Shown: positions 1 through 21,644 of the stretch, piece by piece
Position numbering within the stretch: position 1 is the first letter of the stretch
Layout of the letters: the number at the start of each line of letters is the position of its first letter
Origin: Deltaproteobacteria bacterium
GTDB taxonomy: Bacteria > Desulfobacterota > Syntrophorhabdia > Syntrophorhabdales > Syntrophorhabdaceae
Reading direction: 5' to 3'
DNA: 64,000 nucleotides
Assembly (NCBI GenBank): GCA_022711595.1
Contig: JAKLET010000010.1
Coordinates: 1 to 64,000 of the forward strand
Notes under the pieces: generated by a model
The model's database searches: none
Told to the model about the DNA's origin: nothing
Seen by the model: the letters and a program-made list of their open reading frames with translations, nothing else
Made by a program: the position numbers and the translations under genes

Positions 1-2436
1 GAGCCTCTCCCGGGGGAAGTCCGGGGTGAGCCTGTGCCTCCTGATGAGCTCCCGGGCGTACTCCTCCTCTATCCCCGCGTCGAGGGCCTCGGCGCAGAGG
101 CGGGCCATCTCGCGGGGCTGCCAGTACCAGTAGAAAGTGAATGCGTATTTTTTATCGCTGCCCAAACGGAATGCCTGTTCCAGAGCCCGTAGAGCCCCTT
201 TTTTGTCATCCTTGTCGAAGTGTATGCTCGCCTGGGTGAGGCGTGCAAGGTAAAGGGTGTGGGTAGGATTGAGTCGAGCGAGCATTTCGATAACATTTCG
301 AAGCTCTTCAAAGGCTTCATTATTTTTGCCACAATAGCGTAATGCATACACCAAAGAAAGTCTGCAATATATTTCACCGAAATAAGCCCCCATCTGCAAC
401 GCGGCTTTCAATGCAATGTTTGCATCATTCAGTGCGGAAGTGTATTCACCTTTACCTAAGCTATAAAAAACCTTTTTTGAATAATATCGCGCGACAATCC
501 CGGCCCTTCCTTTAACAGTTGCTGATTCCATTTTTTTCAAGAACGTTTCTGCAAGCCTGAGATCTCCCAGTTCATAAGACGCGATAATTCCATATCCGTA
601 CATAATCCCTAAATGCATTTGCGCCCCAATATCTTCAGCTATTTTGATCGCACTTTCTGTGAGGTTAAGGGTCTGTTCCCATGAGCCGTGCATCCAGTCA
701 TGGAGCTCAACAACCCTGATAATATAGGCCAGATAGATCATCGGAGATGCTACCTGCTGTGAGGAGAGGGCAATCTCTCTCAATTCGTGCGCAAGTCTGT
801 GGAGCTTTTGGTAATCCCCGAACATTGTATAATGCTCAGTTACGTGACCTGCAGCCATCAACCTCGAAACGGGGTCACTGACCTTCTCACTCGCCCTCAC
901 CGCCCGCTCGATCCAGGCGGATATGTTTGTGTGCCAGGGTTGCCTCCAGGTGATACCGCACACCATGGCCGAGGCGATCTGGGCGTCCATCTCCGGAGAG
1001 GGCAGCGGCGCGGCGACATCCACGTTCCTGTCGACCCAGTCTATCCACCTGTCGAAGCGGGTGTAGTCGTCCCACTCGAGGAGGATGCTGTTCATGATGC
1101 CCGCAACGCAGAGCAGGCAGCCCGTGTGGTCCCCCCGGGACTCGAACAAGGCGAAGGCCCTCTCCAGGCAGTCCCTCGTCTGCGCGGGATCCGTGACCAG
1201 GCGCCCCATCCCCAGCCAGTACAGGAGCCAGGGGGTGGAGTCCCTCAGCTCCCCGGGGAGCCTCTGCGCCCACTCCTCCAGGGTGGCTGTCCTGCCGAGG
1301 CCGATCAGGGTGCGGGCATGGTCCAGGATGCGGGGGACGGCCTCCGTGTGCGCCCCCGCGTCAAGGAGGAGCCTGATGCCCTCCTCGGTTTGCCCGAAGC
1401 CGATGAGCAGGCGTCCCGCCTTCACGGTGAGGGAGGCGAGCTCTCCGGGGGTGTAGCGCTTCGCCGCCAGCGCCAGCAGGAACTCCCTGAAGAGGGGATG
1501 GTAGCGGTACTCCGCGCCGTAGCGCTCGGTGAAGAAGCTGTTGCGGTCCAGGTGGGCCAGTATGGAGGCCCCCTCCTGTGTGCCGGTGAGGGACGAGGCG
1601 ATCCCGGGGGAGATAGAGGAAAGCAGGGAGGTGACGAGGAGGAAGTCCTGCACCCGTTCATCGAACCTGCGGAAGACCTCTATGGCGAGATAGTCGAAGA
1701 CGGGCCCCTGGCCTGCAGGATCAGGCGCGGAAGACGGGACGCCCCTCCTGTCGAGCATGAGGATGACACCGGCCGCCCATCCCCGGGTGCTGCCGTGGAT
1801 CCGCCCGACGACCTCCTCGGGGACCGGGGAATGTGCGCGCATGCCGATCATCTCCCTCGACTCGTCCAGGGTGAAGCGGACGTCGTCCCAGCCGATGCCG
1901 CCGAGCATGCTCCGGGCCCTGAGCGAGACATAGGGCGCCGGGGGCTCTTCCCTGCTCACCATGAAGACGCGCACCCCCTCGGGGACGGTCATGAGCCCGT
2001 TCGCTATGACCTCGTGGAACACGGAGGTCCCGGGGACGTCCTGGCAGTTGTCGAAGACGATGGCAGAGGGCCGGGGCATCCTGCCGAAGAGGGACGAGAA
2101 GTAGTGGCGGGTGAAGGCGCTGATGCCGGGGCGCAGCTCGGGGCTCAGAAGGGGAAGGGGCCTCGTCCTCCCCTTCCTCAGGCTCCGCGCCGCCTCCCTC
2201 ATGTAGTAGAAGAAGGTCGCGGGATCGCTGTCGTCCTCGTCTATCCGGTACCAGAGGACGGGGATGCCCCGGGACTGCACGTAGCTGGCAACGAGGGTGG
2301 TCTTGCCCGAACCGGCAGGGGAGGAGACCCAGGTGACCGGGCAGTCGCCCGTCCTGTCGATGAGGTCGAAGAGACGCCGGCGGTCAACGGCCAGCCGGAG
2401 CCTCGGCGGGGTGGTCTTTATCTTGTGGTCGCGCAT
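1..2436 (-). CDS. SARP/LAL-type STAND ATPase regulator, paralogue 1 (C-terminus cut by window edge)
   Basis: The reading frame is open from the ATG at 2436 to the window edge (812 codons visible). It encodes a large cytoplasmic signalling ATPase of the MalT/LAL type: a Walker A motif SPAGSGKTT at residues 39-47, a Walker B-like AIVFDN at about 125-130, then a long helical-repeat region. By comparison with the complete paralogue at 17770-20748 the missing end should carry a winged-helix plus BTAD segment, so the product is probably a transcription factor. Codons 1-493 and about 771-812 appear identical in DNA to the paralogue; codons about 494-770 are clearly homologous but much diverged, and two codons longer. 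I translated this diverged part by hand and found no stop, so it is not a pseudogene within the window. The ligand is unknown. Confidence 0.9.
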   Translation of the reverse strand, partial: MRDHKIKTTPPRLRLAVDRRRLFDLIDRTGDCPVTWVSSPAGSGKTTLVASYVQSRGIPVLWYRIDEDDSDPATFFYYMREAARSLRKGRTRPLPLLSPELRPGISAFTRHYFSSLFGRMPRPSAIVFDNCQDVPGTSVFHEVIANGLMTVPEGVRVFMVSREEPPAPYVSLRARSMLGGIGWDDVRFTLDESREMIGMRAHSPVPEEVVGRIHGSTRGWAAGVILMLDRRGVPSSAPDPAGQGPVFDYLAIEVFRRFDERVQDFLLVTSLLSSISPGIASSLTGTQEGASILAHLDRNSFFTERYGAEYRYHPLFREFLLALAAKRYTPGELASLTVKAGRLLIGFGQTEEGIRLLLDAGAHTEAVPRILDHARTLIGLGRTATLEEWAQRLPGELRDSTPWLLYWLGMGRLVTDPAQTRDCLERAFALFESRGDHTGCLLCVAGIMNSILLEWDDYTRFDRWIDWVDRNVDVAAPLPSPEMDAQIASAMVCGITWRQPWHTNISAWIERAVRASEKVSDPVSRLMAAGHVTEHYTMFGDYQKLHRLAHELREIALSSQQVASPMIYLAYIIRVVELHDWMHGSWEQTLNLTESAIKIAEDIGAQMHLGIMYGYGIIASYELGDLRLAETFLKKMESATVKGRAGIVARYYSKKVFYSLGKGEYTSALNDANIALKAALQMGAYFGEIYCRLSLVYALRYCGKNNEAFEELRNVIEMLARLNPTHTLYLARLTQASIHFDKDDKKGALRALEQAFRLGSDKKYAFTFYWYWQPREMARLCAEALDAGIEEEYARELIRRHRLTPDFPRERL

Positions 2437-2462
2437 GTTCCGGTTTTTTTAAAGACAAGTCA

Positions 2463-2492
2463 ATTGTATGGGATGGGCGCGGCGGTTGTCAA
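2463..2492 (-). promoter_or_regulatory. sigma70-type promoter of regulator paralogue 1
   Basis: Reading the minus strand, TTGACA (2492-2487) is followed after 18 bp by TACAAT (2468-2463), 27 bp before the ATG at 2436. Match to consensus is 6/6 and 5/6. The same promoter is duplicated in front of paralogue 2. Confidence 0.65.
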
Positions 2493-2520
2493 TCGGTAAG
2501 TTGGCAAAAAAAGATGAATC

Positions 2521-2539
2521 TGTAACCTATATGTAACCT
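2521..2539. promoter_or_regulatory. SARP-like operator: TGTAACCT direct repeat, 11-bp spacing
   Basis: TGTAACCT occurs at 2521-2528 and 2532-2539, so the repeats are exactly one helical turn (11 bp) apart. SARP-family regulators are known to bind heptameric direct repeats with 11-bp periodicity. The site lies about 29 bp upstream of the -35 box of the regulator and 37 bp before the divergent gene at 2576, so it could serve autoregulation or the divergent secreted-protein cluster. Binding is inferred. Confidence 0.5.
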
Positions 2540-2575
2540 CAGGAATGGTAATTAAATAAAAAAGAAGGAGGGGTT

Positions 2576-2845
2576 ATGGACAAAAGCGCGGCGGCGATCA
2601 TGATTCAGGCAAAAAGTCTGGGGGTTGCAATAGCATTGACGATCTTTTTCGGCGGCTTGGGTCTTCTTTATTCAACAATACCTGGCGGTATCGTTATGTC
2701 TATTGTCCAGATCATCGTAATCATCATTGCGGTCTTCACATTGGGTTTAGGTTTGATCCTCTTTATACCGGTGCACATCATAAGTGTCATCTGGGCGATC
2801 ATTGCAATAAAAAAATATAACGAAAAATTGATTGCCAATTCGTGA
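2576..2845 (+). CDS. small inner-membrane protein, TM2-like
   Basis: An 89-residue hydrophobic protein with a first membrane segment at about residues 13-31 (ending GGLGLLY) and a second long hydrophobic stretch at about 38-78, closing with a short basic tail. The GGLG...I...IW pattern recalls TM2-type small membrane proteins, but I do not see the full signature. A strong ribosome-binding site (AAGGAGG, 2564-2570) precedes the ATG. It is the first gene divergent from the duplicated regulator, 37 bp from the putative operator, so it may be a target. Function unknown. Confidence 0.75.
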   Translation: MDKSAAAIMIQAKSLGVAIALTIFFGGLGLLYSTIPGGIVMSIVQIIVIIIAVFTLGLGLILFIPVHIISVIWAIIAIKKYNEKLIANS

Positions 2846-3022
2846 TTCAAGAAAAAGTATGGTGAAACATACCCATAATATAACCATGAAAAATCAAGAA
2901 AGATGAGGACATATTACCCTTGACTGTATCGGTAACGCAATGTAAGTATGGAAAAGTTAACAAATGGTAACTGCTTAACAATATATACAACTTATTGAAT
3001 CTGTGGGGGTTTGTAGGACATC

Positions 3023-4615: not shown

Positions 4616-4692
4616 TAGCTGTGAATGAAAATCATCATACGTCAGTTCGGAGGGTAAATATCAACTCGATGTTTCAAGGAGAGAACTGTTAA

Positions 4693-7600
4693 ATGAATCG
4701 TTTAGTTTGCAGTATATTAAACTTTCTACTTATATGTTGCGCCTCCATTCCGGTCACCGCAAATGCAGTAACAATATTCATTGACGGTATGGATCGTATG
4801 AATACTTTTTCTGGCAATTTACTGGGACGTGATACTTCGTATTTAATTAACAGTGCTTTGGCAGACAAGATCGAAGGGGAAAAAAAGGACATACCTTGGT
4901 CAGGTAATATTTATCCCGGGACCTATGATGCTCGGATTGCAACGAATATGTTAAAAGAAGAGATTGTTGAATTGGCAAAATATAATGAACCCATAAACAT
5001 AGTATCCCATAGCTATGGGACGGTAATTGCGTATATAGCATTAAATGAATTGCAGAGTAATGATGAAACAAAACATATCAAAATCGACTCTCTCATTACT
5101 ATGGGTTCTCCTCTCGGAGAAAACGTAAACACAAGTGCGAGCAACTATGGTGAAACAATGGATATCGTTAAAGATCTAGCAAGGATAGGCGACCTGAAAT
5201 TACCAAGCAAGCTTGCACCTCTCGAGAATGTTAAGGGTTGGACAAATGTTCATTCCGCAGGGGACTATGTTTCAGGGGTAATCAATGTCTCCGGTGTAAA
5301 AAATATACAGATTGACGAAGTGATAATAAAATATACAGGCACCAGCATTTCGACCCCGGAATCTGTTATGCCCATCCCGGGATCAACACGGGTCGAAGGA
5401 GTACATCCGCATGCCCAGTACTACGAAACTGAAGCTAAGTTTAAGAAAGATGGGGAGTACGTTCTATTATCTGAGGTACTAACCAAAATACTATCTATAG
5501 GTTCTTTTCAGGACGTGGTGGAGCCGTCAGTATTATCTTTCAATTTGATACCTCCCAATACTTCAACAGCCAAAACAACACAATCCACGATTCTCGGCAA
5601 CGAAAAGTATTCTGAATTTGGATCTGAATTGGGCAGTGGTTATTATACCAACGGAGACGTCGGGGGCGGGGGCGGAGGAAGCTGGGGTGACGATCCTGTT
5701 CAGCAACCATCCATACCCTATATCCCGCCGAATCTTCCCCCATCAGGAAATACCGCATCCCTTAATACAGGGAACAACTCTACGGCGAATAGCACCACCG
5801 GAAACAGCCCCACAGCACCATCATTCAAATTTGGAAGCAATGTTGATGCATCCGGGTATGGTGTCCAGACAACAGGGCTTTTGACAGGAGCCGGAACCTC
5901 GGCGACAGGGAGTAGCCCTCAATACGTTGCCGTTGACCCCACCGGCAGATTCGCATATGTGTCAAACGGCAGTAGTAATACTGTCTCCGTCTACACCATC
6001 AACCAGACCACGGGGGCGCTGACTGCTGGGACGGCTGTGGCTACAGGAATTTATCCCCAGGGCGTTGCCGTTGACCCCACCGGCAGATTCGCATATGCTG
6101 CAAATAACAGCTCCAACTCCATCTCCGTCTACACCATCAACCAGACCACGGGGGCGCTGACTGCTGGGACGGCTGTGGCTACAGGAAGCAACCCGCATCA
6201 TGTCGCTGTCGACCCCATAGGAAAATTTGTATATGCCGCAAATTATGGTTCTAACAGCATCTCCGTCTACACCATCAACCAGACCACGGGGGCGCTGACT
6301 GCTGGGACGGCTGTGGCCACGGGAGTCGCGCCTTCATCCGTTGCCGTTGACCCCACCGGCAGATTTGCATATGTGTCAAGTATCACGTCCCAGACTGTTT
6401 CCGTCTACACCATCAACCAGACCACGGGGGCGCTGACTGCGGGCACAGCGGTGGCAACAGAGATTTGGCCACTTTCGGTCAGCATCGACCCCACCGGCAG
6501 ATTTGCATACGCCGCGAATTACGGTTCCCACTCCATTTCCGTCTACACCATCAACCAGACCACGGGGGCGCTGACCCCGGTGGGAACAATCGCTACGAAC
6601 AATCCTTACTATATTGCCTTTGACCCCACCGGAAAATCTGCGTATGTAACAAACGGTAATCCAAGTCCAGCTACCGTGTCGACGTATACCATCAACCAGA
6701 CCACGGGGATGTTGACCTTGTTGGGAACGACTGCCACAACGGGGAACTTTCCTCAATCCATTGTGGTTGACCCCACCGGAAAATATGCGTATGTGACACA
6801 TGAAGGGATAAACACGGTCTCAAACTACACCATAGATCCATCGATGCAGTTGTTCAGCAGTGTCCTTACCGGCTCAATATCGGGAACCGCATCCCCCGGG
6901 GGCACGACACCTATAACAATGACCGGCTCCTATGATCCTACTAGCCCTTCCTCCTTCTTGTGGGGACAAAAAATCTACAGCTACAATGGGTCAACAGGTC
7001 AAAATACAACATATGATGATCCCCCCAATGCATATGCCGGTTATCTGACGGGCTACAAGGCGGATGACAACACGATGAAGGCGAAATGGGCCAGCATCTA
7101 TGTGAAGGACAACGGCAGTGCGGGCATCCACCTCGGGACCCTCACAGGTACGGCCACGGCACCCAACCATACCACGTCCGGCACGATCAACAAACCCGTG
7201 GAGATGGTCTCAGGCGGGATCGGTTTCACTCCGGCAAATTTGTATCCGGCAAATGTTGTCACCACTTCCCTCATCAACGGCACACCGATTCTTGCCAGCG
7301 GGAACTTCAGCGGAGCCGGCACGATGTCACCCGCATACCGCAAATGGGAGAGTCTTGGCATCACCGGCCAGGAGTGGGGTGTGTGGAGTTCGGTCAGCGG
7401 CGGCAGCTACACCGGGCCGACCTCATCGGGCTGGTCACTTTCCGAGGATTACAATTATGCTGCCACAAAAACGATCATAGGCGCAGAGGTGAAGGGAACG
7501 TCTTGGACAGGGAATAAGATTGAGGGTACGAAAGCCGGTTACGGTGCCGATATAAGCACAGGGAAGACCTGGGTGAGCATCGGGGACGTCATAGGCACGT

Positions 7601-8100
7601 ATGATCCGGTGGCGCTTACGTATCAGGCCGTCGGTGCGGGGTCATGGATAGAGACGAATAAGTTCCTCTGGATGGCGGCCAACGAACCATCGAAACTCCA
7701 GGCGCTCAACATCCCTTGCGTGCAGGTGGGAAATGTGAACCTTGCCGGTTCCAACAACTACGGCACGGGGACTATGAACGTCACCATGAACAACATGAAG
7801 TTTTTTGCCAACACCGCCGGTGGACCGGCGAAGATATGGGCGGTGGGCCAGGGCCAGATGGGAAGCTGGACCGGTACAACCCCGCCGGCTGGTACTGCCG
7901 CCAACATTTCTGGCGGGGGCCTGAACGCCACATTTACCGTTAAGACATTCGATGTGACCACGACCAACAAGTTCAACGCCACGATCACGAACGGGACCGG
8001 AGGTTTCAACGGTTCCACGACCTTCCGTGGCGCCGCCACGGGGACGATCAACACGGCGGCAAAGACCTTCTCCGGAACTGCGGCGGGGGTGGCAAAGTAG
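4693..8100 (+). CDS. secreted lipase-like / YVTN beta-propeller multidomain protein
   Basis: 1135 residues with a signal peptide (about 1-25, cleavage after TANA). Residues about 26-270 look like an alpha/beta hydrolase: VSHSYGT at 104-110 is a nucleophile elbow of form S-x-S-x-G with candidate Ser107. A Gly/Ser/Asn-rich linker (about 310-400) follows. Residues about 410-720 hold seven YVTN/lactonase-type propeller blades of 46-47 residues (VAVDPTGRFAY...VSVYTINQTTGAL). Residues 720-1135 form a Gly/Thr/Asn-rich beta module ending GTAAGVAK, of a kind I associate with large deltaproteobacterial exoproteins. AAGGAGAG precedes the ATG. It directly follows a TPR/beta-barrel gene, which suggests an exporter-cargo pair. 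Domain boundaries are approximate and enzymatic activity is inferred. Confidence 0.8.
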   Translation: MNRLVCSILNFLLICCASIPVTANAVTIFIDGMDRMNTFSGNLLGRDTSYLINSALADKIEGEKKDIPWSGNIYPGTYDARIATNMLKEEIVELAKYNEPINIVSHSYGTVIAYIALNELQSNDETKHIKIDSLITMGSPLGENVNTSASNYGETMDIVKDLARIGDLKLPSKLAPLENVKGWTNVHSAGDYVSGVINVSGVKNIQIDEVIIKYTGTSISTPESVMPIPGSTRVEGVHPHAQYYETEAKFKKDGEYVLLSEVLTKILSIGSFQDVVEPSVLSFNLIPPNTSTAKTTQSTILGNEKYSEFGSELGSGYYTNGDVGGGGGGSWGDDPVQQPSIPYIPPNLPPSGNTASLNTGNNSTANSTTGNSPTAPSFKFGSNVDASGYGVQTTGLLTGAGTSATGSSPQYVAVDPTGRFAYVSNGSSNTVSVYTINQTTGALTAGTAVATGIYPQGVAVDPTGRFAYAANNSSNSISVYTINQTTGALTAGTAVATGSNPHHVAVDPIGKFVYAANYGSNSISVYTINQTTGALTAGTAVATGVAPSSVAVDPTGRFAYVSSITSQTVSVYTINQTTGALTAGTAVATEIWPLSVSIDPTGRFAYAANYGSHSISVYTINQTTGALTPVGTIATNNPYYIAFDPTGKSAYVTNGNPSPATVSTYTINQTTGMLTLLGTTATTGNFPQSIVVDPTGKYAYVTHEGINTVSNYTIDPSMQLFSSVLTGSISGTASPGGTTPITMTGSYDPTSPSSFLWGQKIYSYNGSTGQNTTYDDPPNAYAGYLTGYKADDNTMKAKWASIYVKDNGSAGIHLGTLTGTATAPNHTTSGTINKPVEMVSGGIGFTPANLYPANVVTTSLINGTPILASGNFSGAGTMSPAYRKWESLGITGQEWGVWSSVSGGSYTGPTSSGWSLSEDYNYAATKTIIGAEVKGTSWTGNKIEGTKAGYGADISTGKTWVSIGDVIGTYDPVALTYQAVGAGSWIETNKFLWMAANEPSKLQALNIPCVQVGNVNLAGSNNYGTGTMNVTMNNMKFFANTAGGPAKIWAVGQGQMGSWTGTTPPAGTAANISGGGLNATFTVKTFDVTTTNKFNATITNGTGGFNGSTTFRGAATGTINTAAKTFSGTAAGVAK
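5926..6726 (+). repeat. tandem 138-bp coding repeats (beta-propeller blades)
   Basis: The stretch beginning GTCTACACCATCAACCAGAC recurs at 5989, 6127, 6265, 6403 and 6541 with a strict 138-bp step, then at 6682 (141 bp) in weaker form. About 60 bp per unit are nearly identical between the first units, while the loops between vary. This points to recent amplification or ongoing homogenisation of propeller blades. Confidence 0.9.
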
Positions 8101-8116
8101 AAAAAAAGGAGGCATG

Positions 8117-8347: not shown

Positions 8348-8363
8348 GCAAAGGAGGGAGTGT

Positions 8364-8669: not shown

Positions 8670-8697
8670 TCCATAAAAAACTATCAAAGGAGAACCT

Positions 8698-10872
8698 ATG
8701 CTGACCTGTTCCCGATGCAGCGCCCCTATTAAGGCCAATCAAAAGTTTTGCCCCAGGTGCGGCTACAGTCTGAAGGCATATCCCCCGGTCTCATCTGCCG
8801 ATCCCGTTCCACAGGAACCTTCCTCTCCGGAGAGGCGCGGACCCTTCCCCCCCGAGCTCACCGCCTCCGTCGACATCCACGAGAAGAGGATATCGCAGGA
8901 CCCTTTGAACCCCGATCTCTATATCGCCTTCGGCGGCCTCTACCGCGACTATAAATATTACGAGGAGGCCCTGGTCCAGTACCAGAAGGCGGTGAACCTG
9001 GACCCCTCTAGAAGTGACGCCCACCGCCTGTCGGGACAGGCATACCTGGCCCTCGGGAACTACGAGAGGGCGAAGGTCTCCTTCGAAAAGGCCCTTTCAT
9101 CGACTCCAGACCCCGAGGCGCAGACCGGCCTCTTCCTGGCCCTGAAGGGGATGGATAAAACAGAGGACGCCATCGCCATGGGCAGCGGGCTCCTCGCCGG
9201 GGACGGCAGGCGCCCCGAGCTCTACCGTGCCATGGCGGACCTCTACCTCTCAAGGGGCATGGAGGACGACGCCATATCCATGCTCACCTCCCTTGCCGCT
9301 CTCTCGCCGGACAGGGAGGTCCACAGGGAGATCTCCCGGCTCTACCGGAAGAGGAGCATGCCCGACGAGGCCCTCCTCCACGCGCAGAAGGTGCTCTCCC
9401 TCGACCCGAAGGACAGTGACGCTCTCCTCGAGGCCGGGACCATCTCCCGGGAGAAGGGCGACCTTGACGCGGCAGGGCACTACCTTGAGGCGCTCCTCGG
9501 TGATGAGCCCGGGCACACCTCCGCACGCGCTCAGCTTGCCCTCGTCCATGCGGACAGGGGGGACCTTGCCCGTGCCGCAAAGACCCTCGACGCCCTCCCT
9601 CCGGATGCCCCTTCATCGGCAAAATCTGAAGAGAAGGAGCTCATAGCGCGGGCGTACGGGAAGATGGGAGAGAAGGCCCTCGCCTCCGGCGACACGATAA
9701 AGGCGAAGGAATACCTGAAGGCCTCCCTCGAGTACGCAAAGGACCCGGAAGTGTCCTCTGCCCTTGCGTCTATCATCGGGAAGGAGGCGGACAATGCCTT
9801 TGCAAGGCAGGACTACCAGGGGGCCAGCCTGCTCTATGAAAGGGCGGCGGACCTGGACGAGTCATACCGGCAGAAGCTCTCTTCGACTAAAAGGATCATC
9901 GCCGGAAGGATGAGGAAGAAGGCCGTCATGATAGGGGCGCCCGTCCTGTGCGTCCTGCTCGCGGTCTGCGCCTTCTTCATCTGGAAGCACTACACCACGG
10001 GGGAGGTCATCCTCTCCTTCTGCAACGCGGACAACGAGGTGGAGAAGCTCGAGATAGACGGCAAGGCCTACAAGCCGGAGCCCCAGACCATCCGCCTTCC
10101 CACAGGGGAGCACAAGGTATTCGCCAAGGCGAAGCAGGGCTACAAGGACGACACCTCCACCTACACCTTAAAGGGCGGGGAGAAGAAGGAGCTTTACATA
10201 TCGCTGGACAAGCTGTCGGAGGTGAGGCAGGAGACAGGCGGAGAAACAACGGGGCAGGCACAGGAAAGTGGGCAGGGGGCAACAGGAGGGGAATCACCTA
10301 TGGATTTCTTCCCGCAAAGAGGAAAGACAAGGGTTGGCAGATACACGACAGGGAAAGCAGAAACGAGTTTTACGGTCGTGGGGAATTCCACCTTCCACGG
10401 AAGAAACGCAATGGAAGTGAGATATATAACGAAGGTCCCAGGAAAAAAAGAGTTAGTAGAGATGAGATATTTTGAAATAGACCAAAATTCGATCAGCTAT
10501 CTGGGCAGCAAGTCTATTGGGGGCAAGACAGCAAAGACAAGTACATACGATCCCGGTGTTACTGTGCTTAAGCTTCCTTTGAACAATGGCGCATCCTGGG
10601 AGAGCAGCTATGATGTCCGGCATGATGTCGATGGCAAAATCAAGAACTTATCATATAGAATGAAATATTTTGTGGAGGGCAAAGAGGTTATAAATACTCC
10701 AGGCGGGAGCTTTGATTGTCATAAGATCGAGAAAATACTTTACGACCGCGATAACGGGAAAGAAGTAAACAGGGGCTACACATGGCACGCACGGGGAATT
10801 GGAATTGTAAAAGAGAACACGCGATGGTCTAACGGAAATTTTGCGGAATGGATGTTCACAAGGTCAGAATAG
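8698..10872 (+). CDS. zinc-ribbon, TPR, single-pass membrane protein with extracytoplasmic C-terminal domain
   Basis: 724 residues. It starts with a zinc ribbon (C4, C7, C18, C21), then about eight TPR-like units (about 56-395), a membrane helix (about 402-428), a small PEGA-like beta domain (about 430-505), a Gly/Gln-rich linker and a C-terminal domain (about 535-724) whose repeated beta pattern recalls DUF3108-type domains. Topology should be cytoplasmic ribbon/TPR and periplasmic C-terminus. AAAGGAG precedes the ATG. Base composition changes sharply near 10270-10300: the first three quarters use GC-rich codons (CTC, GCC, GAG), the last quarter is AT-rich like the genes downstream. This suggests a fusion of segments with different histories. 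Confidence 0.75.
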   Translation: MLTCSRCSAPIKANQKFCPRCGYSLKAYPPVSSADPVPQEPSSPERRGPFPPELTASVDIHEKRISQDPLNPDLYIAFGGLYRDYKYYEEALVQYQKAVNLDPSRSDAHRLSGQAYLALGNYERAKVSFEKALSSTPDPEAQTGLFLALKGMDKTEDAIAMGSGLLAGDGRRPELYRAMADLYLSRGMEDDAISMLTSLAALSPDREVHREISRLYRKRSMPDEALLHAQKVLSLDPKDSDALLEAGTISREKGDLDAAGHYLEALLGDEPGHTSARAQLALVHADRGDLARAAKTLDALPPDAPSSAKSEEKELIARAYGKMGEKALASGDTIKAKEYLKASLEYAKDPEVSSALASIIGKEADNAFARQDYQGASLLYERAADLDESYRQKLSSTKRIIAGRMRKKAVMIGAPVLCVLLAVCAFFIWKHYTTGEVILSFCNADNEVEKLEIDGKAYKPEPQTIRLPTGEHKVFAKAKQGYKDDTSTYTLKGGEKKELYISLDKLSEVRQETGGETTGQAQESGQGATGGESPMDFFPQRGKTRVGRYTTGKAETSFTVVGNSTFHGRNAMEVRYITKVPGKKELVEMRYFEIDQNSISYLGSKSIGGKTAKTSTYDPGVTVLKLPLNNGASWESSYDVRHDVDGKIKNLSYRMKYFVEGKEVINTPGGSFDCHKIEKILYDRDNGKEVNRGYTWHARGIGIVKENTRWSNGNFAEWMFTRSE

Positions 10873-11011
10873 GACAGGAGGGATCAACGAAAGGATACGT
10901 GTTATACACATAGGTTTTACGCCATTGTTCTTGATCGTCGACTATTCGATATAGCGGTGCAGTCATGATAGAACCAAGGCCAAAAATATTTTATTAAAAA
11001 AGGAGTGGAAA

Positions 11012-11998: not shown

Positions 11999-12050
11999 AA
12001 TTATGTCAAGAGTAATTGTTGAAACGCTGGGAGACAAGGGGAGAATTATT

Positions 12051-12470: not shown

Positions 12471-12522
12471 ACAGTGAAAAGAGGAAGAGCGATTTGAATA
12501 CATTAATTAAAGGATAGAAGAT

Positions 12523-13020
12523 ATGAGAACGATATTTACAAGCCGAGTTGCTGCCGTAATGTCCCTGTTGATCTTTTCGTTGTTGTTTGTTTTTGCAACC
12601 TTTTCTTATGGGTCAGAGCCGGGCGAGGAAACGGTCTGCTTGAGAAAGCCGAACGCCGAAGAACTGGCGATAGTCATCAGGCATGGGTATAAAGATATCA
12701 AGGAATACAAGAAGATGGTCAGAGATATCTATAATCAAGAATTGGAGAAAACGATTGGCGTGACAGTCCTTGACATAAATAATGACAATAAGCCCGACAT
12801 TGTTTTTACTGATCAGGGCCGGACGGGAAGCTGTGGTCATTCATGGGATGTCCTTCTCAACATGGGAAATGGACAGTATAAAATGATAGGTATATCTGAC
12901 TGCACCGGTGAATGCATCACTTTTCTAAAAGAGATGAAGAATGGTTTTAGAATGGCAAGAATAGACGGTGGTGTTTTGTTTTATGACGCGAAGAAATGCG
13001 GTTATGTCGATCACAAATGA
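12523..13020 (+). CDS. secreted protein with Ca-binding (FG-GAP/EF-hand-like) motif
   Basis: 165 residues, signal peptide about 1-30. The motif LDINNDNKPDIVF resembles the Asp/Asn-rich calcium loops of FG-GAP/VCBS repeats. Four Cys in the second half (GSCGHSW, DCTGEC) could form disulfides. AAGGAT precedes the ATG. It ends 5 bp before the convergent MFS gene. No family name is supported. Confidence 0.65.
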   Translation: MRTIFTSRVAAVMSLLIFSLLFVFATFSYGSEPGEETVCLRKPNAEELAIVIRHGYKDIKEYKKMVRDIYNQELEKTIGVTVLDINNDNKPDIVFTDQGRTGSCGHSWDVLLNMGNGQYKMIGISDCTGECITFLKEMKNGFRMARIDGGVLFYDAKKCGYVDHK

Positions 13021-13025
13021 TGAAG

Positions 13026-14306
13026 CTATTCTTTGATATAATCAAGGGCGGTCCTTGCGGTCCCTTCTTCGTTTCTTTTAGGTATTTTCAGTGCCAGCGC
13101 TACGCTGATCATCACAAAGACAGCCATGGCTCCGAACGCCCAGCGGTAACGCACAGGCCCGGAATCTGCCATACCGGAAACGATGGCACCCCACGCCATC
13201 GGGCCGATGAAGGTCGCGAAACGCTCGAAAAGCACGTAGAAGCTTGAGGCGAAATTCAGTTTTTCGTTGGGGCAAAGCCTGGTCAACAAAGCGCGGGTCA
13301 CCGCGAAGACAGAACCAAAAAAAACCGAAAGTACCGCAACAGCTATATTGAAGCTCACAAAATTCCTTTGCATGGCTATCACGGGTAGAAGAACGCAAAA
13401 CCCCAACAGCAAAAAGACCAGGGTGGGCTTGAGGCCGAGGCGGTCGCTCGCCCACCCGCTGAGCACGCTCCCCAGTGCAGAGCATACAAGGATCATCAGG
13501 AGGATCGATGACTTGATACTGTCCGGCAAAGACCAGACCTGCTGAAGGAATATGGGAAAGTTGATGCTTATCGTCAGGAGCGCATCAGCGAAAAGAAAGT
13601 AGGACAGGAGGAACAGCACGATTCCTGGAACTTTGAGCAATCCCCGGCAGTTTTCCGCAAATTCCTGCATCTCCTGGAGTCCTGTCGTTCTCGCCGCTTT
13701 TACTGTTAAATGCCGCTCGGGTGCACGGAATAACAGAATCATTGGCAGGGACAATGCGATGTATGCAAGGGTGGCCGGCAGAAAGGCCTGTACGCGGCCG
13801 GGAGGCCCCGGCAGGAGCACCATCCCTTTTACCAGGGGAAGGCATATGATCAATCCCGCGACCTGACCGATCCAGTTGCCAAACTGCCCGAGGCCGGAAA
13901 CATATCCCCTGCGCTGGGGCGGCGAGATATCGCTGAGCAGCGGGGTATAGAACACAAGGCTCAACAGGTAAAAATAATTTACCATGAGGAAACAGAGAAC
14001 GGCCGGCCACAATGTTGTTTTTACAATAAAAGGCACGATCGATGCCGCCAGGTAACATATATAGGTCATCACCGTGACCCGCTTGAGATACGTCAGTCTG
14101 AGTCCTCTCCTGTCAGCCATTGATCCCAGCACGGGGGCTGTCAGGGTCAAGAGCGCGCTGGAGCCGACAAATATCATATTGAAACGAAAATCCGACAACC
14201 CGCGTTCCACCACGAGCCACTGGGAAAAATAAAGATAAAAGGCGACAAAGGAAACGGAGTTGGCAAAATCATACAAAACCCAATAGAAAACATTTTTTTT
14301 ATTCAT
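13026..14306 (-). CDS. MFS transporter, UMF1/Atg22-like
   Basis: 426 residues with about 12 hydrophobic segments. The N-terminus FYWVLYDFANS matches the start of the UMF1 (vacuole effluxer Atg22-like) branch of the major facilitator superfamily, and SMADRRGLRL supplies the cytoplasmic loop 2-3 motif. GGAAGG precedes the ATG. It is followed on the same strand, 26 bp upstream, by the DUF1329 and DUF1302 genes, so the three may be one operon moving a hydrophobic or amphipathic compound. Substrate unknown. Confidence 0.85.
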   Translation of the reverse strand: MNKKNVFYWVLYDFANSVSFVAFYLYFSQWLVVERGLSDFRFNMIFVGSSALLTLTAPVLGSMADRRGLRLTYLKRVTVMTYICYLAASIVPFIVKTTLWPAVLCFLMVNYFYLLSLVFYTPLLSDISPPQRRGYVSGLGQFGNWIGQVAGLIICLPLVKGMVLLPGPPGRVQAFLPATLAYIALSLPMILLFRAPERHLTVKAARTTGLQEMQEFAENCRGLLKVPGIVLFLLSYFLFADALLTISINFPIFLQQVWSLPDSIKSSILLMILVCSALGSVLSGWASDRLGLKPTLVFLLLGFCVLLPVIAMQRNFVSFNIAVAVLSVFFGSVFAVTRALLTRLCPNEKLNFASSFYVLFERFATFIGPMAWGAIVSGMADSGPVRYRWAFGAMAVFVMISVALALKIPKRNEEGTARTALDYIKE

Positions 14307-14332
14307 CAGCCTTCCCTTTGTTACTCTTCAGT

Positions 14333-15799
14333 CTACTTTGCCCCAAGCAGCTCTTCGATATTCACGTCCCGGCGCCTCCACTGCGAGGGCAGAGAAAATG
14401 ATAACTCAACATTTGACCGCATGTTGATATGGTCCTTTATCAGGTGCGGACCTGTCCATGAGAACATTCCCGAATCAGGGAAAAAACCATATTGCGTGTC
14501 CCTGGTCCTGTAAAGCCGGCCTTTTTTATCGTAATTTTCAATGTGGTAAAAGAGGAATGTCTCCTTGTCGATGTAAAAGATCCTTGAACCGTACACATAG
14601 CCGGGATCGAGCTGTGTCATCTTTATCACATAAAGCGGCCGGCGCTCAAAACGGATGTTCTTGAGCTCCGCACCTTCCGAAGAGACATATTCCGCACCGT
14701 CAAGCGAAGGGGCGGGAACGAGGTACTCTCTCTCTTCGATGAGCTCGAAACGGTAGGGGTACCGCACGGGAGATATCTTCTGCATGAAACCTTCCCAATC
14801 ATCATAGATCCTGCCCTGCCCGGAGAGGTCGTCCTGCGTGTCCCTCGGTGCAAGCTTCCGCACTTTCCTGGTCCAGGGCATGTAGACCATAAGGGCATCC
14901 GGTTTCTCCGAATCGTTATAGGTCATCCCTGTCTGCAGCCCGCCGGAAAAATCACGCGGCGAAATGTAGGTGAGTGCGAAGGTTTTAACCTCCTCTCTTT
15001 TCCGGGCCCCTTCATCGTAGTATCCGTATGGTTCCAGGATGCATCTTCCTGTCAATCTCAGCATTTTCACGTTAAAAATGCCCTGGAAATCGATTCGAAG
15101 GCTTTTCGCATAACTGGTCAGTCTGGCCAGAAAAAAACAATCCCCACCCCAGCCCACGTATCTTTTTTCCACGTTGTACATGATCTGTTGTGCCTTGAAT
15201 TTTCCTTCCGGTCTTGGAAAGGGATATCCCCCGTCCCAGGTGTCCTTGATAAGGTAGCCCTTTTCGTCAAGCCTTGCCCTGTTAAGGTTCTTTTTTGTCA
15301 ACTCTGCAATTGGCAAGGACCAGTAGTATTGACGGGTTGGAATGATCTCGAACTCCGGTATGGAGCCGGCGAAAGGAGGACCCCCGGGCTTGATCCTTTC
15401 GAGGAGGTCTTTATAGAATAGTTTTCTGAGACCCGGGTATTTATCCATGTCCTTGCAGGTATATTTCCCGGGTTTTATCTCCGGTGCTATCTTTTCCACC
15501 TCTCCGGGCGCCGTGAATCCTACCAATTCCGACCATTGTTTTTTCATGTTTCCCACGTTGTAGGTGAGCTGCTCGTACATCTTATCGGGCAAGAGCTGCT
15601 TTGGCCCAAAATGCGTAAGCCAGGGCCGGGGATCATCAAACATCTTCTTATGCGCGTCAATATCTGCCAGCGAAGGTAAATAGGTCAAGGGATCGGGATA
15701 TTCCATGGATAAACAAAGAACAGGGAAAAAGAGAAGTACAATGCATAGCCCCAGAACGGGAAGTTGAATGGATCCTGTTTTCGCGATGAACGTTTTCAT
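14333..15799 (-). CDS. DUF1329 domain protein (periplasmic, LolA-like fold)
   Basis: About 488 residues. The start at 15799 is preferred because AAGGGGT lies at a proper distance; an ATG at 15808 abuts that site. A signal peptide (about 1-35) is followed by the DUF1329 domain, with characteristic outer-membrane-sensitivity-protein-like segments (WGGDCFF, RDFSGGLQTG, YVIKMTQLDPGYVYGSRIFYID). DUF1329 proteins are regularly paired with DUF1302 barrels and RND/MCE-type lipid or hydrophobic-compound transporters, and here the DUF1302 gene lies immediately upstream. A role as periplasmic carrier is inferred. Confidence 0.85.
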   Translation of the reverse strand: MKTFIAKTGSIQLPVLGLCIVLLFFPVLCLSMEYPDPLTYLPSLADIDAHKKMFDDPRPWLTHFGPKQLLPDKMYEQLTYNVGNMKKQWSELVGFTAPGEVEKIAPEIKPGKYTCKDMDKYPGLRKLFYKDLLERIKPGGPPFAGSIPEFEIIPTRQYYWSLPIAELTKKNLNRARLDEKGYLIKDTWDGGYPFPRPEGKFKAQQIMYNVEKRYVGWGGDCFFLARLTSYAKSLRIDFQGIFNVKMLRLTGRCILEPYGYYDEGARKREEVKTFALTYISPRDFSGGLQTGMTYNDSEKPDALMVYMPWTRKVRKLAPRDTQDDLSGQGRIYDDWEGFMQKISPVRYPYRFELIEEREYLVPAPSLDGAEYVSSEGAELKNIRFERRPLYVIKMTQLDPGYVYGSRIFYIDKETFLFYHIENYDKKGRLYRTRDTQYGFFPDSGMFSWTGPHLIKDHINMRSNVELSFSLPSQWRRRDVNIEELLGAK

Positions 15800-15826
15800 T
15801 GTGATCATACCCCTTTCATGCTTGTT

Positions 15827-17356
15827 CTAAAAACGATAACTTATCGTCAGATAAAGCTGGTCCTTGTGTTTTAGCGCTTGGTAGCTTTTGCCGGCTTTGT
15901 CTCCGTCAAAAAAGAGTACGCCCAATGTGTACCGCCAATGGTGGCTCCAGTCATATACCGTCTGAAGCCTGAAAAAGTTTGCCTTTTCACTTATGTTGCG
16001 AAGCCAGAAGAAAGAGGGTTGAAGTTTTCCGCCCAGATAGCCCGTGCTGATCATAAGGCTCGCCTGGTAGTTGTTCTCTCTCAGCGACTCGCCTCCGGGC
16101 CCGCTCAGCATTCCCTCTCCAGGGTAATTCATTATTTTGCGATGGTAGAACTGCGGTGAGATCGTGAAAAAAGACAATTGATTAAGCAATGGTATCTTTA
16201 CTTTCCAGTCTATACCGGCCGCCCAGCGTATCTCGTCATGTTGCTCAAAGGCATTAAGGCGGTCCCAGGTGAATGTTTTGTTGAAAGCGTAGAATCCCTC
16301 AAGGCGAAGTAAGGGCGCCACACCGCCAAGGGCTGTTGACTGCAGGGGATCGATATCCGTTGTCAGTGTCCCGCCGACGAAACGGAACATGGGATAGTAA
16401 CCCTCCACGTTAGGATGGAAGATCGTCCTGCCGTCATAGGGAGAAACCTCAGGCCTGGGGAGCCCGGCTGTTCGTACTACCGGATCTTTATCGCTGCCGT
16501 AATAGTAATTCAAGGTGACGACTGTATCTCGAACAACAGCCCGTAAGCGCAGGGCGTATTCAAAACCGTCCGATCCTCCCGGTTCGGTCAGGCGGGAGTC
16601 GGCAGATCCCATATAGCCAAAATCCCTGGGATAGGGTCTGTTCGTCGGTATCTCTATATAAGGCGACCAGATACCCGATACGTCATTGCCCGGTTTCATG
16701 CTCTCATTGGGAACGAACTGGAGGTTGGGATTGAATATCACCTGGAAAGAAAGGCTCTGGCACCAGTCCGGAAGGTCCGGTACCCCGTATTCCGCCCTTA
16801 CAAGCCATGTAGGCTGAATGGTTGTTTCAAATTCAACATCCGCAAGCCCCCGCCTTTGGTCGAGCGGATTGATCTGGTCCATGAGCCTGAACCCGTCCGT
16901 TTCCCCCCATCGCACGATCTGTTTTCCCAATCTGAAATAAAAATGGTCGGGTCGCCAGGTTATGTGAGCCTCATTGAGAATATCCTTGAAATCATCAAAC
17001 ACATATAGCTTCCCTCTTGATTCATCAAATCCCTTATCCCGCCAGTTTGTGTTGTCTTTCAGGGCCTGGTACGCCCAGTCCGCGTTGAACCTTCCGCTCA
17101 GGAAGATCCGCATATCGTGCCTTGGTTCATATGTTCCTTCGATGAGCCCCTGAAAGATTGCCGACTGAAAACTTTCCTGGGTATCAAAGTGTTCGCCTGC
17201 TATGCCAAACCCCACGCTCTGGCTCAGGTACCCGTGAATGGAGAGCGGTTTGCCCCAGAGCTGCATCTCGGCAGCCGGGGAGTTCGTACATAACAATGCT
17301 GCAAGGATAAAGGCAGGCAAAAGCGTACTTCGAATAAGAATGTCAGTAATTCTCAT
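15827..17356 (-). CDS. DUF1302 outer-membrane beta-barrel protein
   Basis: 509 residues with signal peptide (about 1-28), then LWGKPLSIHGYLSQSVGFG and many amphipathic strands, ending in the aromatic ITISYRF. The segments FYFRLGKQIVRWGETDGFR and MDQINPLDQRRG are typical of DUF1302 proteins. It is probably the outer-membrane partner of the DUF1329 protein 27 bp downstream. These pairs are linked to transport of hydrophobic substrates; the substrate here cannot be read from the sequence. Confidence 0.88.
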   Translation of the reverse strand: MRITDILIRSTLLPAFILAALLCTNSPAAEMQLWGKPLSIHGYLSQSVGFGIAGEHFDTQESFQSAIFQGLIEGTYEPRHDMRIFLSGRFNADWAYQALKDNTNWRDKGFDESRGKLYVFDDFKDILNEAHITWRPDHFYFRLGKQIVRWGETDGFRLMDQINPLDQRRGLADVEFETTIQPTWLVRAEYGVPDLPDWCQSLSFQVIFNPNLQFVPNESMKPGNDVSGIWSPYIEIPTNRPYPRDFGYMGSADSRLTEPGGSDGFEYALRLRAVVRDTVVTLNYYYGSDKDPVVRTAGLPRPEVSPYDGRTIFHPNVEGYYPMFRFVGGTLTTDIDPLQSTALGGVAPLLRLEGFYAFNKTFTWDRLNAFEQHDEIRWAAGIDWKVKIPLLNQLSFFTISPQFYHRKIMNYPGEGMLSGPGGESLRENNYQASLMISTGYLGGKLQPSFFWLRNISEKANFFRLQTVYDWSHHWRYTLGVLFFDGDKAGKSYQALKHKDQLYLTISYRF

Positions 17357-17769
17357 CCTAACGCGTCCTTTTTTTTAGTTTTATTTAGATAATACGGAAA
17401 CGCTCCCCAACTCAGCGTACCCTTGTTTATTGCCAATTCAAAGATTTGAATGTCTGACGCAGTTCATCTGGTTTTCCGGTGTTCTTAAAACATAGAAATT
17501 ACACGAACAAACCGGCTTCGCTGCAGGCTGCCTGATGAACTGCGCTTCCTGATCCTGGTATGTTCAAACCCTATTTGCGGGCGACCCCTTTTACCGAACC
17601 AGAAAAAAATGCTTCTTGAAATGCAAAAATCGGAACCTTGATGAAATGATCGATGGATTATGTGCTTACCAGTCCCGAATTCAAAAAATACAGTTCAATT
17701 TTATTGAAATCTGAATATGGTTGTCAACCATTATATGTCATTAAAAAACCACCTGCCAGCAGCCCCCCC
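17357..17769 (-). other. intergenic region, no gene supported
   Basis: 413 bp between the 5' end of the DUF1302 gene and the 3' end of regulator paralogue 2. It is AT-rich next to the DUF1302 start and should hold that operon's promoter, but I cannot point to convincing -35/-10 boxes. Short open frames here have no ribosome-binding site. Confidence 0.5.
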
Positions 17770-20748
17770 TCAACCCTCCTTTCCGAGCATGCCCGAGAGC
17801 ATCTGCTCCACCTTCAGGGACTTTCTGCGGAGCCTCTCCCGGCAGGGGTGTATCCAGGGGTCATCGTCGTGGTCGAGGAACTCTCCCCCGCATATCCCGG
17901 CAAAGGAGGACATGAGGCCTGAAGCCTCACCGTTCCAGTCACGGGTGTGTCTCGCCTCCCACAGATCCGACACGCGTTCCGCCAGGCCCTCGAGGGCCCA
18001 GGTGTCCAGCCAGACGTGGTTTTCGTTCAGGCTCACCCTGCCTTCCCTGACCTCTATGGCACGCTCGTCCCCGAGCAGGCGGCGCAGGCGGGAGAGGGTG
18101 GTCTTGAAGGATATGCGGGCGGCGTCGCCATCGGCATCGGGCCAGAGCATGTCCTCCAGCTCCTCCTGGCGGACCTTCCTGCCCCCCGTGCTTATGAGGG
18201 CCTTGAGGAGCATGAGCGGTTTCTTCTGGACCTTGCCGGTGAATGAAAGGGGCCTTTCGTCGATGAGCACCTCGAAGCGCCCCAGGGTACGGATGCGCAC
18301 CGGGAAGGGCCAGTTCGTGAGCCTCTCCCGGGGGAAGTCCGGGGTGAGCCTGTGCCTCCTGATGAGCTCCCGGGCGTACTCCTCCTCTATCCCCGCGTCG
18401 AGGGCCTCGGCGCAGAGGCGGGCCATCTCGCGGGGCTGCCAGTAGGAGTAGAAGGTGAACGCGTATCTTTTTGTCCTCCCTATGGAGAAGGCCTCTTCGA
18501 GGGTCCTTCGTGCTTCCTGTGTCCTCCCCTCGTCGAAGTGTATGCTCGCCTGGGTGAGACGCGCAAGGTAAAGCAGGTGGATGTGCCCCATGGCCCCGAA
18601 GGACTCTTCGATCTTTTCCAGCTCTTCCGCGACCCTCTTTTTTTCGCCCGTACGGCAAAGGATGTAGGTCAGCTTGATCCGGGCATATGTCTCGTAGATA
18701 ATACTGCCGATCTTCATTCCCTCTTTTACGGCATTTTCGGCGTCTTGCCGGGCCAGGGCGAGATCACCCCTCTGCATGTGATAGATCGACCTCATAGAGC
18801 AGAAGCGTCCTCTCATCCCTCTCTTGCCCAGGATGTCCTGGTGTTCCATGATCCTGAAGAACTCGCCCGCCAGTTCCAGATTCTCCAGTTCGAAGGCGCC
18901 CACGATGCCGCTCAGACAGATAACACCCTGAAGAAAATGAGCACCCATATCATCTGCCAGGGTTATAGCATTTTTTACCATGCGGATCGTTTCCTCCCAT
19001 GATCCATGCATCCAGTCGTGGAGATATACGATGCGTACCATGTAGGCAAGGTGTGCCATCGGCGGCAGGTTAGGAGAGAAAGCGATCTTCCTCAGGTCCT
19101 CGGCTACCTGATGGAGTTCAATAAAATTGCCGAATATGGCATGGTACTCCATAACATTGCCCCGCGCCATCAACCTCGCGACGGGGTCACTGACCTTCTC
19201 GCTCGCCCTCACCGCCCGCTCGATCCAGTCGGCCATATTTTCGTGCCAGGGCATCCGGTATGTGAGGCTGCACACCATGGCCGAGGCGATCTGGGCGTCC
19301 ATCTCCGGAGAGGGCAGCGGCGCGGCGACATCCACGTTCCTGTCGACCCAGTCTATCCACCTGTCGAAGCGGGTGTAGTCGTCCCACTCGAGGAGGATGC
19401 TGTTCATGATGCCCGCAACGCAGAGCAGGCAGCCCGTGTGGTCCCCCCGGGACTCGAACAAGGCGAAGGCCCTCTCCAGGCAGTCCCTCGTCTGCGCGGG
19501 ATCCGTGACCAGGCGCCCCATCCCCAGCCAGTACAGGAGCCAGGGGGTGGAGTCCCTCAGCTCCCCGGGGAGCCTCTGCGCCCACTCCTCCAGGGTGGCT
19601 GTCCTGCCGAGGCCGATCAGGGTGCGGGCATGGTCCAGGATGCGGGGGACGGCCTCCGTGTGCGCCCCCGCGTCAAGGAGGAGCCTGATGCCCTCCTCGG
19701 TTTGCCCGAAGCCGATGAGCAGGCGTCCCGCCTTCACGGTGAGGGAGGCGAGCTCTCCGGGGGTGTAGCGCTTCGCCGCCAGCGCCAGCAGGAACTCCCT
19801 GAAGAGGGGATGGTAGCGGTACTCCGCGCCGTAGCGCTCGGTGAAGAAGCTGTTGCGGTCCAGGTGGGCCAGTATGGAGGCCCCCTCCTGTGTGCCGGTG
19901 AGGGACGAGGCGATCCCGGGGGAGATAGAGGAAAGCAGGGAGGTGACGAGGAGGAAGTCCTGCACCCGTTCATCGAACCTGCGGAAGACCTCTATGGCGA
20001 GATAGTCGAAGACGGGCCCCTGGCCTGCAGGATCAGGCGCGGAAGACGGGACGCCCCTCCTGTCGAGCATGAGGATGACACCGGCCGCCCATCCCCGGGT
20101 GCTGCCGTGGATCCGCCCGACGACCTCCTCGGGGACCGGGGAATGTGCGCGCATGCCGATCATCTCCCTCGACTCGTCCAGGGTGAAGCGGACGTCGTCC
20201 CAGCCGATGCCGCCGAGCATGCTCCGGGCCCTGAGCGAGACATAGGGCGCCGGGGGCTCTTCCCTGCTCACCATGAAGACGCGCACCCCCTCGGGGACGG
20301 TCATGAGCCCGTTCGCTATGACCTCGTGGAACACGGAGGTCCCGGGGACGTCCTGGCAGTTGTCGAAGACGATGGCAGAGGGCCGGGGCATCCTGCCGAA
20401 GAGGGACGAGAAGTAGTGGCGGGTGAAGGCGCTGATGCCGGGGCGCAGCTCGGGGCTCAGAAGGGGAAGGGGCCTCGTCCTCCCCTTCCTCAGGCTCCGC
20501 GCCGCCTCCCTCATGTAGTAGAAGAAGGTCGCGGGATCGCTGTCGTCCTCGTCTATCCGGTACCAGAGGACGGGGATGCCCCGGGACTGCACGTAGCTGG
20601 CAACGAGGGTGGTCTTGCCCGAACCGGCAGGGGAGGAGACCCAGGTGACCGGGCAGTCGCCCGTCCTGTCGATGAGGTCGAAGAGACGCCGGCGGTCAAC
20701 GGCCAGCCGGAGCCTCGGCGGGGTGGTCTTTATCTTGTGGTCGCGCAT
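17770..20748 (-). CDS. SARP/LAL-type STAND ATPase transcriptional regulator, paralogue 2 (complete)
   Basis: 992 residues. The N-terminal STAND ATPase has Walker A SPAGSGKTT at 39-47 and Walker B-like AIVFDN at 125-130, followed by MalT/LAL-type arrangement to about residue 340. Helical repeats (about 350-790) form a presumed ligand or protein sensor. An OmpR/PhoB-like winged helix (about 818-917, RIRTLGRFEV...WPDADGDAARISFKTTLSRLRRLLG) and a shortened BTAD tail follow. In actinobacterial SARPs the DNA-binding domain is N-terminal; here it is C-terminal, the layout of LAL proteins with the LuxR domain replaced. The same promoter and operator precede it as in paralogue 1. Targets are unknown. 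Confidence 0.92.
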   Translation of the reverse strand: MRDHKIKTTPPRLRLAVDRRRLFDLIDRTGDCPVTWVSSPAGSGKTTLVASYVQSRGIPVLWYRIDEDDSDPATFFYYMREAARSLRKGRTRPLPLLSPELRPGISAFTRHYFSSLFGRMPRPSAIVFDNCQDVPGTSVFHEVIANGLMTVPEGVRVFMVSREEPPAPYVSLRARSMLGGIGWDDVRFTLDESREMIGMRAHSPVPEEVVGRIHGSTRGWAAGVILMLDRRGVPSSAPDPAGQGPVFDYLAIEVFRRFDERVQDFLLVTSLLSSISPGIASSLTGTQEGASILAHLDRNSFFTERYGAEYRYHPLFREFLLALAAKRYTPGELASLTVKAGRLLIGFGQTEEGIRLLLDAGAHTEAVPRILDHARTLIGLGRTATLEEWAQRLPGELRDSTPWLLYWLGMGRLVTDPAQTRDCLERAFALFESRGDHTGCLLCVAGIMNSILLEWDDYTRFDRWIDWVDRNVDVAAPLPSPEMDAQIASAMVCSLTYRMPWHENMADWIERAVRASEKVSDPVARLMARGNVMEYHAIFGNFIELHQVAEDLRKIAFSPNLPPMAHLAYMVRIVYLHDWMHGSWEETIRMVKNAITLADDMGAHFLQGVICLSGIVGAFELENLELAGEFFRIMEHQDILGKRGMRGRFCSMRSIYHMQRGDLALARQDAENAVKEGMKIGSIIYETYARIKLTYILCRTGEKKRVAEELEKIEESFGAMGHIHLLYLARLTQASIHFDEGRTQEARRTLEEAFSIGRTKRYAFTFYSYWQPREMARLCAEALDAGIEEEYARELIRRHRLTPDFPRERLTNWPFPVRIRTLGRFEVLIDERPLSFTGKVQKKPLMLLKALISTGGRKVRQEELEDMLWPDADGDAARISFKTTLSRLRRLLGDERAIEVREGRVSLNENHVWLDTWALEGLAERVSDLWEARHTRDWNGEASGLMSSFAGICGGEFLDHDDDPWIHPCRERLRRKSLKVEQMLSGMLGKEG

Positions 20749-20774
20749 GTTCCGGTTTTTTTAAAGACAAGTCA

Positions 20775-20804
20775 ATTGTATGGGATGGGCGCGGCGGTTG
20801 TCAA
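20775..20804 (-). promoter_or_regulatory. sigma70-type promoter of regulator paralogue 2
   Basis: On the minus strand TTGACA (20804-20799) and TACAAT (20780-20775) are separated by 18 bp; identical to the promoter of paralogue 1. Confidence 0.65.
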
Positions 20805-20832
20805 TCGGTAAGTTGGCAAAAAAAGATGAATC

Positions 20833-20851
20833 TGTAACCTATATGTAACCT
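20833..20851. promoter_or_regulatory. SARP-like operator, second copy
   Basis: TGTAACCT at 20833-20840 and 20844-20851, 11-bp spacing, as at 2521-2539. Sequence identity between the two paralogous loci ends at the last base of this site. Confidence 0.5.
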
Positions 20852-21608: not shown

Positions 21609-21644
21609 GCTGTTTCACAAATACATTCATAAGGAGGTTTTACG

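Follow-up and report, generated by a model that had tools for sequence, protein, structure and literature searches.

Two related regulator genes, here called copies A and B, are found in the window (the whole 64,000-nucleotide stretch that was analyzed, G000:C2:1–64000). They are direct copies, 18.3 kb apart from start to start, and their features are collected in Table 1. Position 1 coincides with the end of contig C2, a point missed in the sequence-only reading, so that copy A is present without its last ~180 residues, the SARP domain included. The genome data consist of a single draft assembly.

Contig C5 opens with 193 bp of the 3′ end of a regulator copy. This piece is 97.9% identical to B, the similarity ceases about 25 bp beyond the stop codon, and the 55 residues it encodes are identical to those of B. 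Most simply, it is probably the 3′ end of copy A; if so, the few DNA differences from B mean that the tract is older than the one covering the head of the gene. An attempt to prove by synteny that C5 continues copy A failed, as the relatives that are readable past tRNA-Glu have other genes. At the C5 site (L014, positions 1–403) the regulator 3′ end directly adjoins tRNA-Glu and tRNA-Lys. These tRNAs and the nad genes downstream are common to relatives; beyond the tRNAs, where readable, the gene content differs, making this a variable site. No tRNA-Glu attachment-site repeat was found within the window.

Several other features lie nearby. Directly downstream of copy B, genes for an MFS transporter, DUF1329 and DUF1302 (13026–17356, minus strand) share one orientation and possibly form an operon. 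An AT-rich inverted repeat of 102 bp (21508–21609 and 23525–23626), 99% identical and with GGGGTCAGGTCTTGTATTTG ends, may be a small mobile element or one associated with a transposase. In-frame tandem repeats occur at 5925–6575 (about 138 bp, in a beta-propeller protein) and at 55220–56308 (126 bp, in a repeat protein at 55028–58174). Paralogous genes at 27026–28053, 43134–44161 and about 71.3–72.0 kb of contig C2 have DNA blocks 72–86% similar to one another, and the same similarity extends to genes that lie beside the tRNA-Glu site in relatives.

Table 1. Coordinates of the two regulator copies and associated features in the window.
Feature	Position	Strand	Remarks
Copy A, regulator gene	1..2436	-	Codons 1–812; 3′ end lost at contig end
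Copy B, complete regulator	17770..20748	-	992 aa; MalT-like STAND ATPase head, TPR sensor, C-terminal SARP (winged helix + BTAD)
Homogenized block 1, copy A	958..2539	-	Operator, promoter, ATPase/arm; residues 1–493; GC3 0.91
Homogenized block 1, copy B	19270..20851	-	Identical to 958–2539
Homogenized block 2, copy A	1..126	-	Sensor end, hinge before SARP; GC3 0.98
Homogenized block 2, copy B	18319..18444	-	Identical to 1–126
Diverged TPR sensor segment, copy A	127..957	-	GC3 0.50
Diverged TPR sensor segment, copy B	18445..19269	-	GC3 0.70
Identical patch (27 bp) within diverged segment	A 890..916 / B 19202–19228	-	GC3-rich; probable older conversion scar
Identical patch (20 bp) within diverged segment	A 869..888 / B 19181–19200	-	From alignment and permutation
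Identical patch (27 bp) within diverged segment	A 214..240 / B 18532–18558	-	From alignment and permutation
Operator-like direct repeat TGTAACCTATATGTAACC	2521..2538	+	11-bp period; then 7 bp and TGGTAAT; reads towards divergent ORF
Same operator-like repeat before copy B	20833..20850	+	Extended -10, outside block, degenerate
Sigma-70-like promoter of copy A	2463..2492	-	TTGACA-18-TACAAT, 11/12; within homogenized block, same in B
Divergent 89-aa ORF with RBS	2576..2845	+	Hydrophobic, probable membrane protein; predicted target of 2521–2538 operator

Domain architecture and family

A profile built from 27 homologs was matched to structures and Pfam. Residues 1–402 match the MalT ATPase region (8bob, E 4e-61), and this P-loop head carries Walker A and B motifs (consensus PAGSGKTTLV and VFDN). 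The similarity of the regulator to MalT has an E value of 1e-45. Residues 533–774 match the MalT DT3/TPR sensor as well as other TPR sensors (1hz4 among the matches), and the predicted model shows helical hairpins in this part, at low overall confidence (pLDDT 50; three sequences were predicted, and the models used for secondary structure only). There is no C-terminal LuxR-type HTH. In its place, residues 816–967 match structures of the AfsR SARP domain, which occupies positions 816–992 of 992 and combines an OmpR-type winged helix with BTAD, the arrangement that marks SARP regulators. Pfam matches among family members include AAA/NACHT, TPR_MalT (14/27) and BTAD (12/27); B by itself scores below the Pfam threshold for BTAD. 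Homologs occur in about a tenth of the sampled phylum genomes (41/395), with up to seven matches per genome.

Identity pattern of the two copies

Direct alignment bears out the mosaic described by the sequence-only reading. Block 1, consisting of 103 bp upstream and 493 codons, has 0 differences over 1582 bp, and block 2 likewise has none. Between the middles (276 aligned codons) identity falls to 58% at the DNA level and 46% at the protein level, and their lengths are two codons apart. The breaks are sharp, with saturated divergence directly abutting the blocks with 0 differences. Synonymous sites behave in the same way, with differences at 0/282 fourfold sites in the head against 38/59 in the middle. 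Between the middles, NG86 dS is about 2.7 and dN 0.44; dN/dS is about 0.16, and both reading frames are open. The longest identical coding run covers 1479 sites, compared with a maximum of 85 in 2000 permutations. The middle is itself non-uniform, with three identical patches of 27, 20 and 27 bp (permutation P = 0.0002).

The breaks fall near the borders of the ATPase, TPR sensor and SARP domains, and the diverged segment (493–768) covers the sensor domain. Thus the two copies share motor, promoter and an operator-like box while their sensors differ; the identical parts correspond to the motor, the hinge and probably the output.

Age of the pair and probable gene conversion

In both the head and the middle trees, A and B group with L017 (support 0.98 and 1.0), which is their sole neighbor, is 44% identical and comes from a genome in a different family of the same order. 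In the middle tree the A–B distance is 1.03, against 1.35–1.45 to L017, while in the head tree it is 0, against 1.10 to L017; without conversion the A and B heads should differ by about 0.8 substitutions per site. Five close ortholog pairs show much the same divergence in head, middle and tail (e.g. 88/87/87% and 83/84/80% at the amino acid level), L011/L021, somewhat slower in the head, being the exception. Taken together, the trees, the distances and the even divergence of orthologs mean that the duplication is old and that its ends were recently overwritten. A hypervariable sensor throughout the family was considered and rejected, as close orthologs diverge evenly along the gene.

We infer that the ends of an old duplicate pair have recently undergone ectopic gene conversion. 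This is probably the correct reading, in preference to a fast-evolving sensor or an imported segment, and it agrees with the process proposed from the sequence alone. The pair shows what such conversion leaves behind: old paralogs in which blocks of near-zero synonymous divergence, promoter included, end at sharp borders beside saturated divergence, with mosaic patches in between. Recurrent non-crossover conversion between the direct copies would keep operator, promoter, ATPase, hinge and probably the SARP domain identical; its age and recurrence are read from one pattern in one genome. The proposal that conversion preserves ATPase, promoter and DNA-binding end is supported for the first two, where there are 0 differences, and probably holds for the DNA-binding end as far as it is assembled.

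Selection that lets the sensor vary goes beyond what the borders require. In the tuf genes of Salmonella, mismatch repair cuts conversion 200–1000-fold at a handful of differences (PMC5485169). Given 42% DNA divergence, recombination and mismatch repair alone should halt conversion at the middle, unaided by selection, so that the TPR sensor would now be too diverged for conversion, short scars excepted, and two input specificities would be kept. Selection for keeping two sensors is plausible, and is a separate matter from the borders.

The same mosaic would arise if a recent duplication of the whole gene had been followed by replacement of one sensor, through homologous recombination with an outside allele. 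The unusually low GC3 of the middle of A (0.50), the compositional patchiness of the region, and the tRNA-Glu next to the probable 3′ end of A, with genes beyond it that differ among relatives, would all suit such an import. It is nevertheless unlikely, as the middles of A and B are each other's closest relatives (support 0.85), L017 branching outside them (1.0) in a neighborhood shared with the head; no closer donor sensor was found in 46 class genomes or 395 phylum genomes, and both middles, not one, depart in GC3 from the ends.

An assembly artefact, with a single real locus or a collapsed repeat and the ends of A copied from B by the assembler, is very improbable. It draws on the facts that the contig ends within the second identical block, that C5 begins in the same gene, and that an exact repeat of 1.58 kb is difficult for short reads. 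Against it, each copy has a unique upstream flank, the window contains no N runs, and the two middles are different, intact, in frame and under selection. Collapse of near-identical reads could mask a few differences, so that the true identity of the ‘100%’ blocks may be slightly lower, but it could not make two middles.

That the ends are identical through strong constraint alone, beside a fast-evolving sensor, is almost certainly wrong: distant family members are indeed less conserved in the middle (14–24% vs 36–43%), but the synonymous sites already refute it, with A and B agreeing at all 282 fourfold sites and at every promoter base, and close orthologs are near-equal in all segments. Uniform divergence along the two genes, the outcome that would have spoken against the sequence-only reading, is not seen.

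The search for further copies turned up no third complete copy in the genome, only one distant paralog on contig C36 (37%, not homogenized). Full searches of 14 related genomes likewise gave no near-identical blocks between paralogs, and a pair of the A/B type was not found in any other genome examined. Paralog pairs of the same family occur in G126 (L088/L094) and G333 (L079/L084), with DNA 74–79% alike in parts and lower elsewhere; these are not homogenized.

Codon composition

The blocks also differ from the middles in base composition. The head has a GC3 of 0.913, the hinge 0.976 and the SARP domain of B 0.846, against 0.504 for the middle of A and 0.699 for that of B, so that head minus middle is 0.41 in A and 0.21 in B. 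The same difference in 62 homologs has a mean of 0.02 (sd 0.055, maximum 0.16), and none has a comparable step. The GC3 of B (0.844) is the highest among 330 genes (mean 0.645, sd 0.067) in 452 kb of sampled stretches of the genome. GC3 within the middle is correlated with how alike the copies are locally (rho 0.61, P = 0.007), and the identical patches have a GC3 of 0.92, from only 24 codons, vs 0.46 (A) and 0.68 (B) outside them.

In bacteria, recombining genes are reported to have a higher GC3 in 11 of 14 groups (PMC4450053), and the cause is debated (PMC6867656). The data suggest, as a good hypothesis rather than a result, that conversion here was GC-biased, and that repeated conversion would have raised the GC3 of the converted parts; this is the least certain step of the proposed mechanism. 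If so, one pair would record GC-biased conversion inside a bacterial gene, with GC3 falling from 0.91 to about 0.5 at the borders and rising again in converted patches while the sensor escapes, a reading that we put forward tentatively.

Under biased conversion, converted tracts should be richer in GC3, as they are, and unconverted genes should be stepless, which two neighbors are not. The genes at 4693–8100 (GC3 from 0.35 to 0.7) and 8698–10872 (0.85–0.95 to 0.46) have steps of about 0.2–0.26 within the gene, lie in the low-GC stretch between A and B, and look like chimeric or island genes. Neither has a second copy in the genome, and any internal repeats in 8698–10272 are weak at best (59% over 100 bp). 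Since these single-copy neighbors show similar steps, the step in A and B may be regional and not made by conversion. It is quite possible that the step reflects either such patchiness or a high-GC source of the ends, imported from a GC-rich relative and then copied between A and B. The compositional patchwork around the locus agrees with this, and some homologs reach a GC3 of 0.86 (L046); on the other hand, the nearest relative of the head is L017, with a GC3 of 0.71, at the same relative depth as for the middle. Other recent repeats in the sampled stretches are few and short.

Putative operator, promoter and proposed regulation

The operator-like repeat is the last feature inside block 1, which ends exactly on TGTAACCTATATGTAACC. 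Published SARP operators are heptamers with 4-nt spacers (PMC5930380), the 3′ repeat lying 8 bp from the -10 (PMC10936776). The geometry of the box, a putative operator, fits these. The box TGTAACC-N4-TGTAACC is perfect only at A and B in the 3.5 Mb genome; elsewhere in the genome matches are at chance level, as the pattern and a reversed control give 9 each, those at A and B included. A blind scan for repeats of 11-bp period upstream of 46 homologs gave only three perfect cases, A, B and the distant homolog L072, which has the same box (TGTGACCAATATGTGACC). In A as in L072, TGGTAAT stands 7 bp beyond the box, and the arrangement points away from the regulator. As the extended pattern was drawn up with these two already in view, its independent tests are the weaker box of L037 (16/18) and the whole-genome uniqueness only. 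An operator is recognizable upstream of only about 4 of the 46 homologs, and the DUF1302-DUF1329-MFS genes behind copy B have none in front of them. The divergent 89-aa ORF has no Pfam match. Boxes of the OmpR/PhoB type look similar to SARP heptamer repeats, and the binder may be another winged-helix regulator.

A and B would be two MalT-type STAND regulators from an old duplication, each with a SARP domain at the C-terminus for DNA binding. Each sensor would bind its own signal, the shared ATPase would oligomerize, and the shared SARP domain would bind the TGTRACC-N4-TGTRACC box before both genes. Either signal would then activate the same small set of promoters, those of its own and the sister gene and of the divergent membrane-protein gene at 2576. 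Two signals would share one set of DNA targets, with auto- and cross-regulation. The earlier idea of two inputs on one output is plausible. The same putative operator stands at both genes, but most of the DNA-binding domain of A is unassembled.

Significance and comparison with known systems

If conversion is the process, the pair would be a clear case of concerted evolution that affects a one-protein signaling switch only in its output, its promoter and its motor and leaves the sensor free, and such domain-restricted concerted evolution would be a direct route to many inputs with a common output. With the proposed operator, this family of MalT/SARP hybrid regulators has a DNA target that can be tested. 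Of greatest interest is the GC3 step, as an internal check on biased conversion: at tract borders it provides, inside a single gene, a control on the contested view that recombination itself raises GC in bacteria and, if true, would make the debated bias testable within single genes.

In Campylobacter jejuni, Tlp2, Tlp3 and Tlp4 have identical signaling domains and sensor domains about 30% identical (PMC9769880), and may be seen as a precedent, in chemoreceptors, for a design with shared output and different inputs. They are membrane chemoreceptors and not transcription factors; unlike in these, the identity of A and B also covers the promoter and operator and resumes after the sensor, and GC3 tracks the identity blocks. 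MalT, the LAL/STAND maltose regulator, is single-copy in the textbook case. Its structures match the N-terminal ATPase head and TPR sensor found here, but the A/B family carries a C-terminal SARP domain and not a LuxR HTH.

The combination of SARP with NOD/TPR is that of SARP-LAL and large SARP regulators such as PimR and AfsR, and heptameric direct-repeat operators of 11-bp period are also shared with these (PMC5930380, PMC10936776), here by sequence alone; the SARP domain is C-terminal in the A/B family, not N-terminal as in AfsR and PimR. Ectopic gene conversion keeps bacterial paralogs alike in tuf (PMC5485169) and in 26 genes (PMC6053082). Conversion in those cases is of the whole gene, whereas in A and B it would be restricted to the ends, skipping one domain. 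New here, and absent from the sequence-only reading, are a GC3 step that tracks the homogenized blocks and an operator-like repeat at the end of a block.
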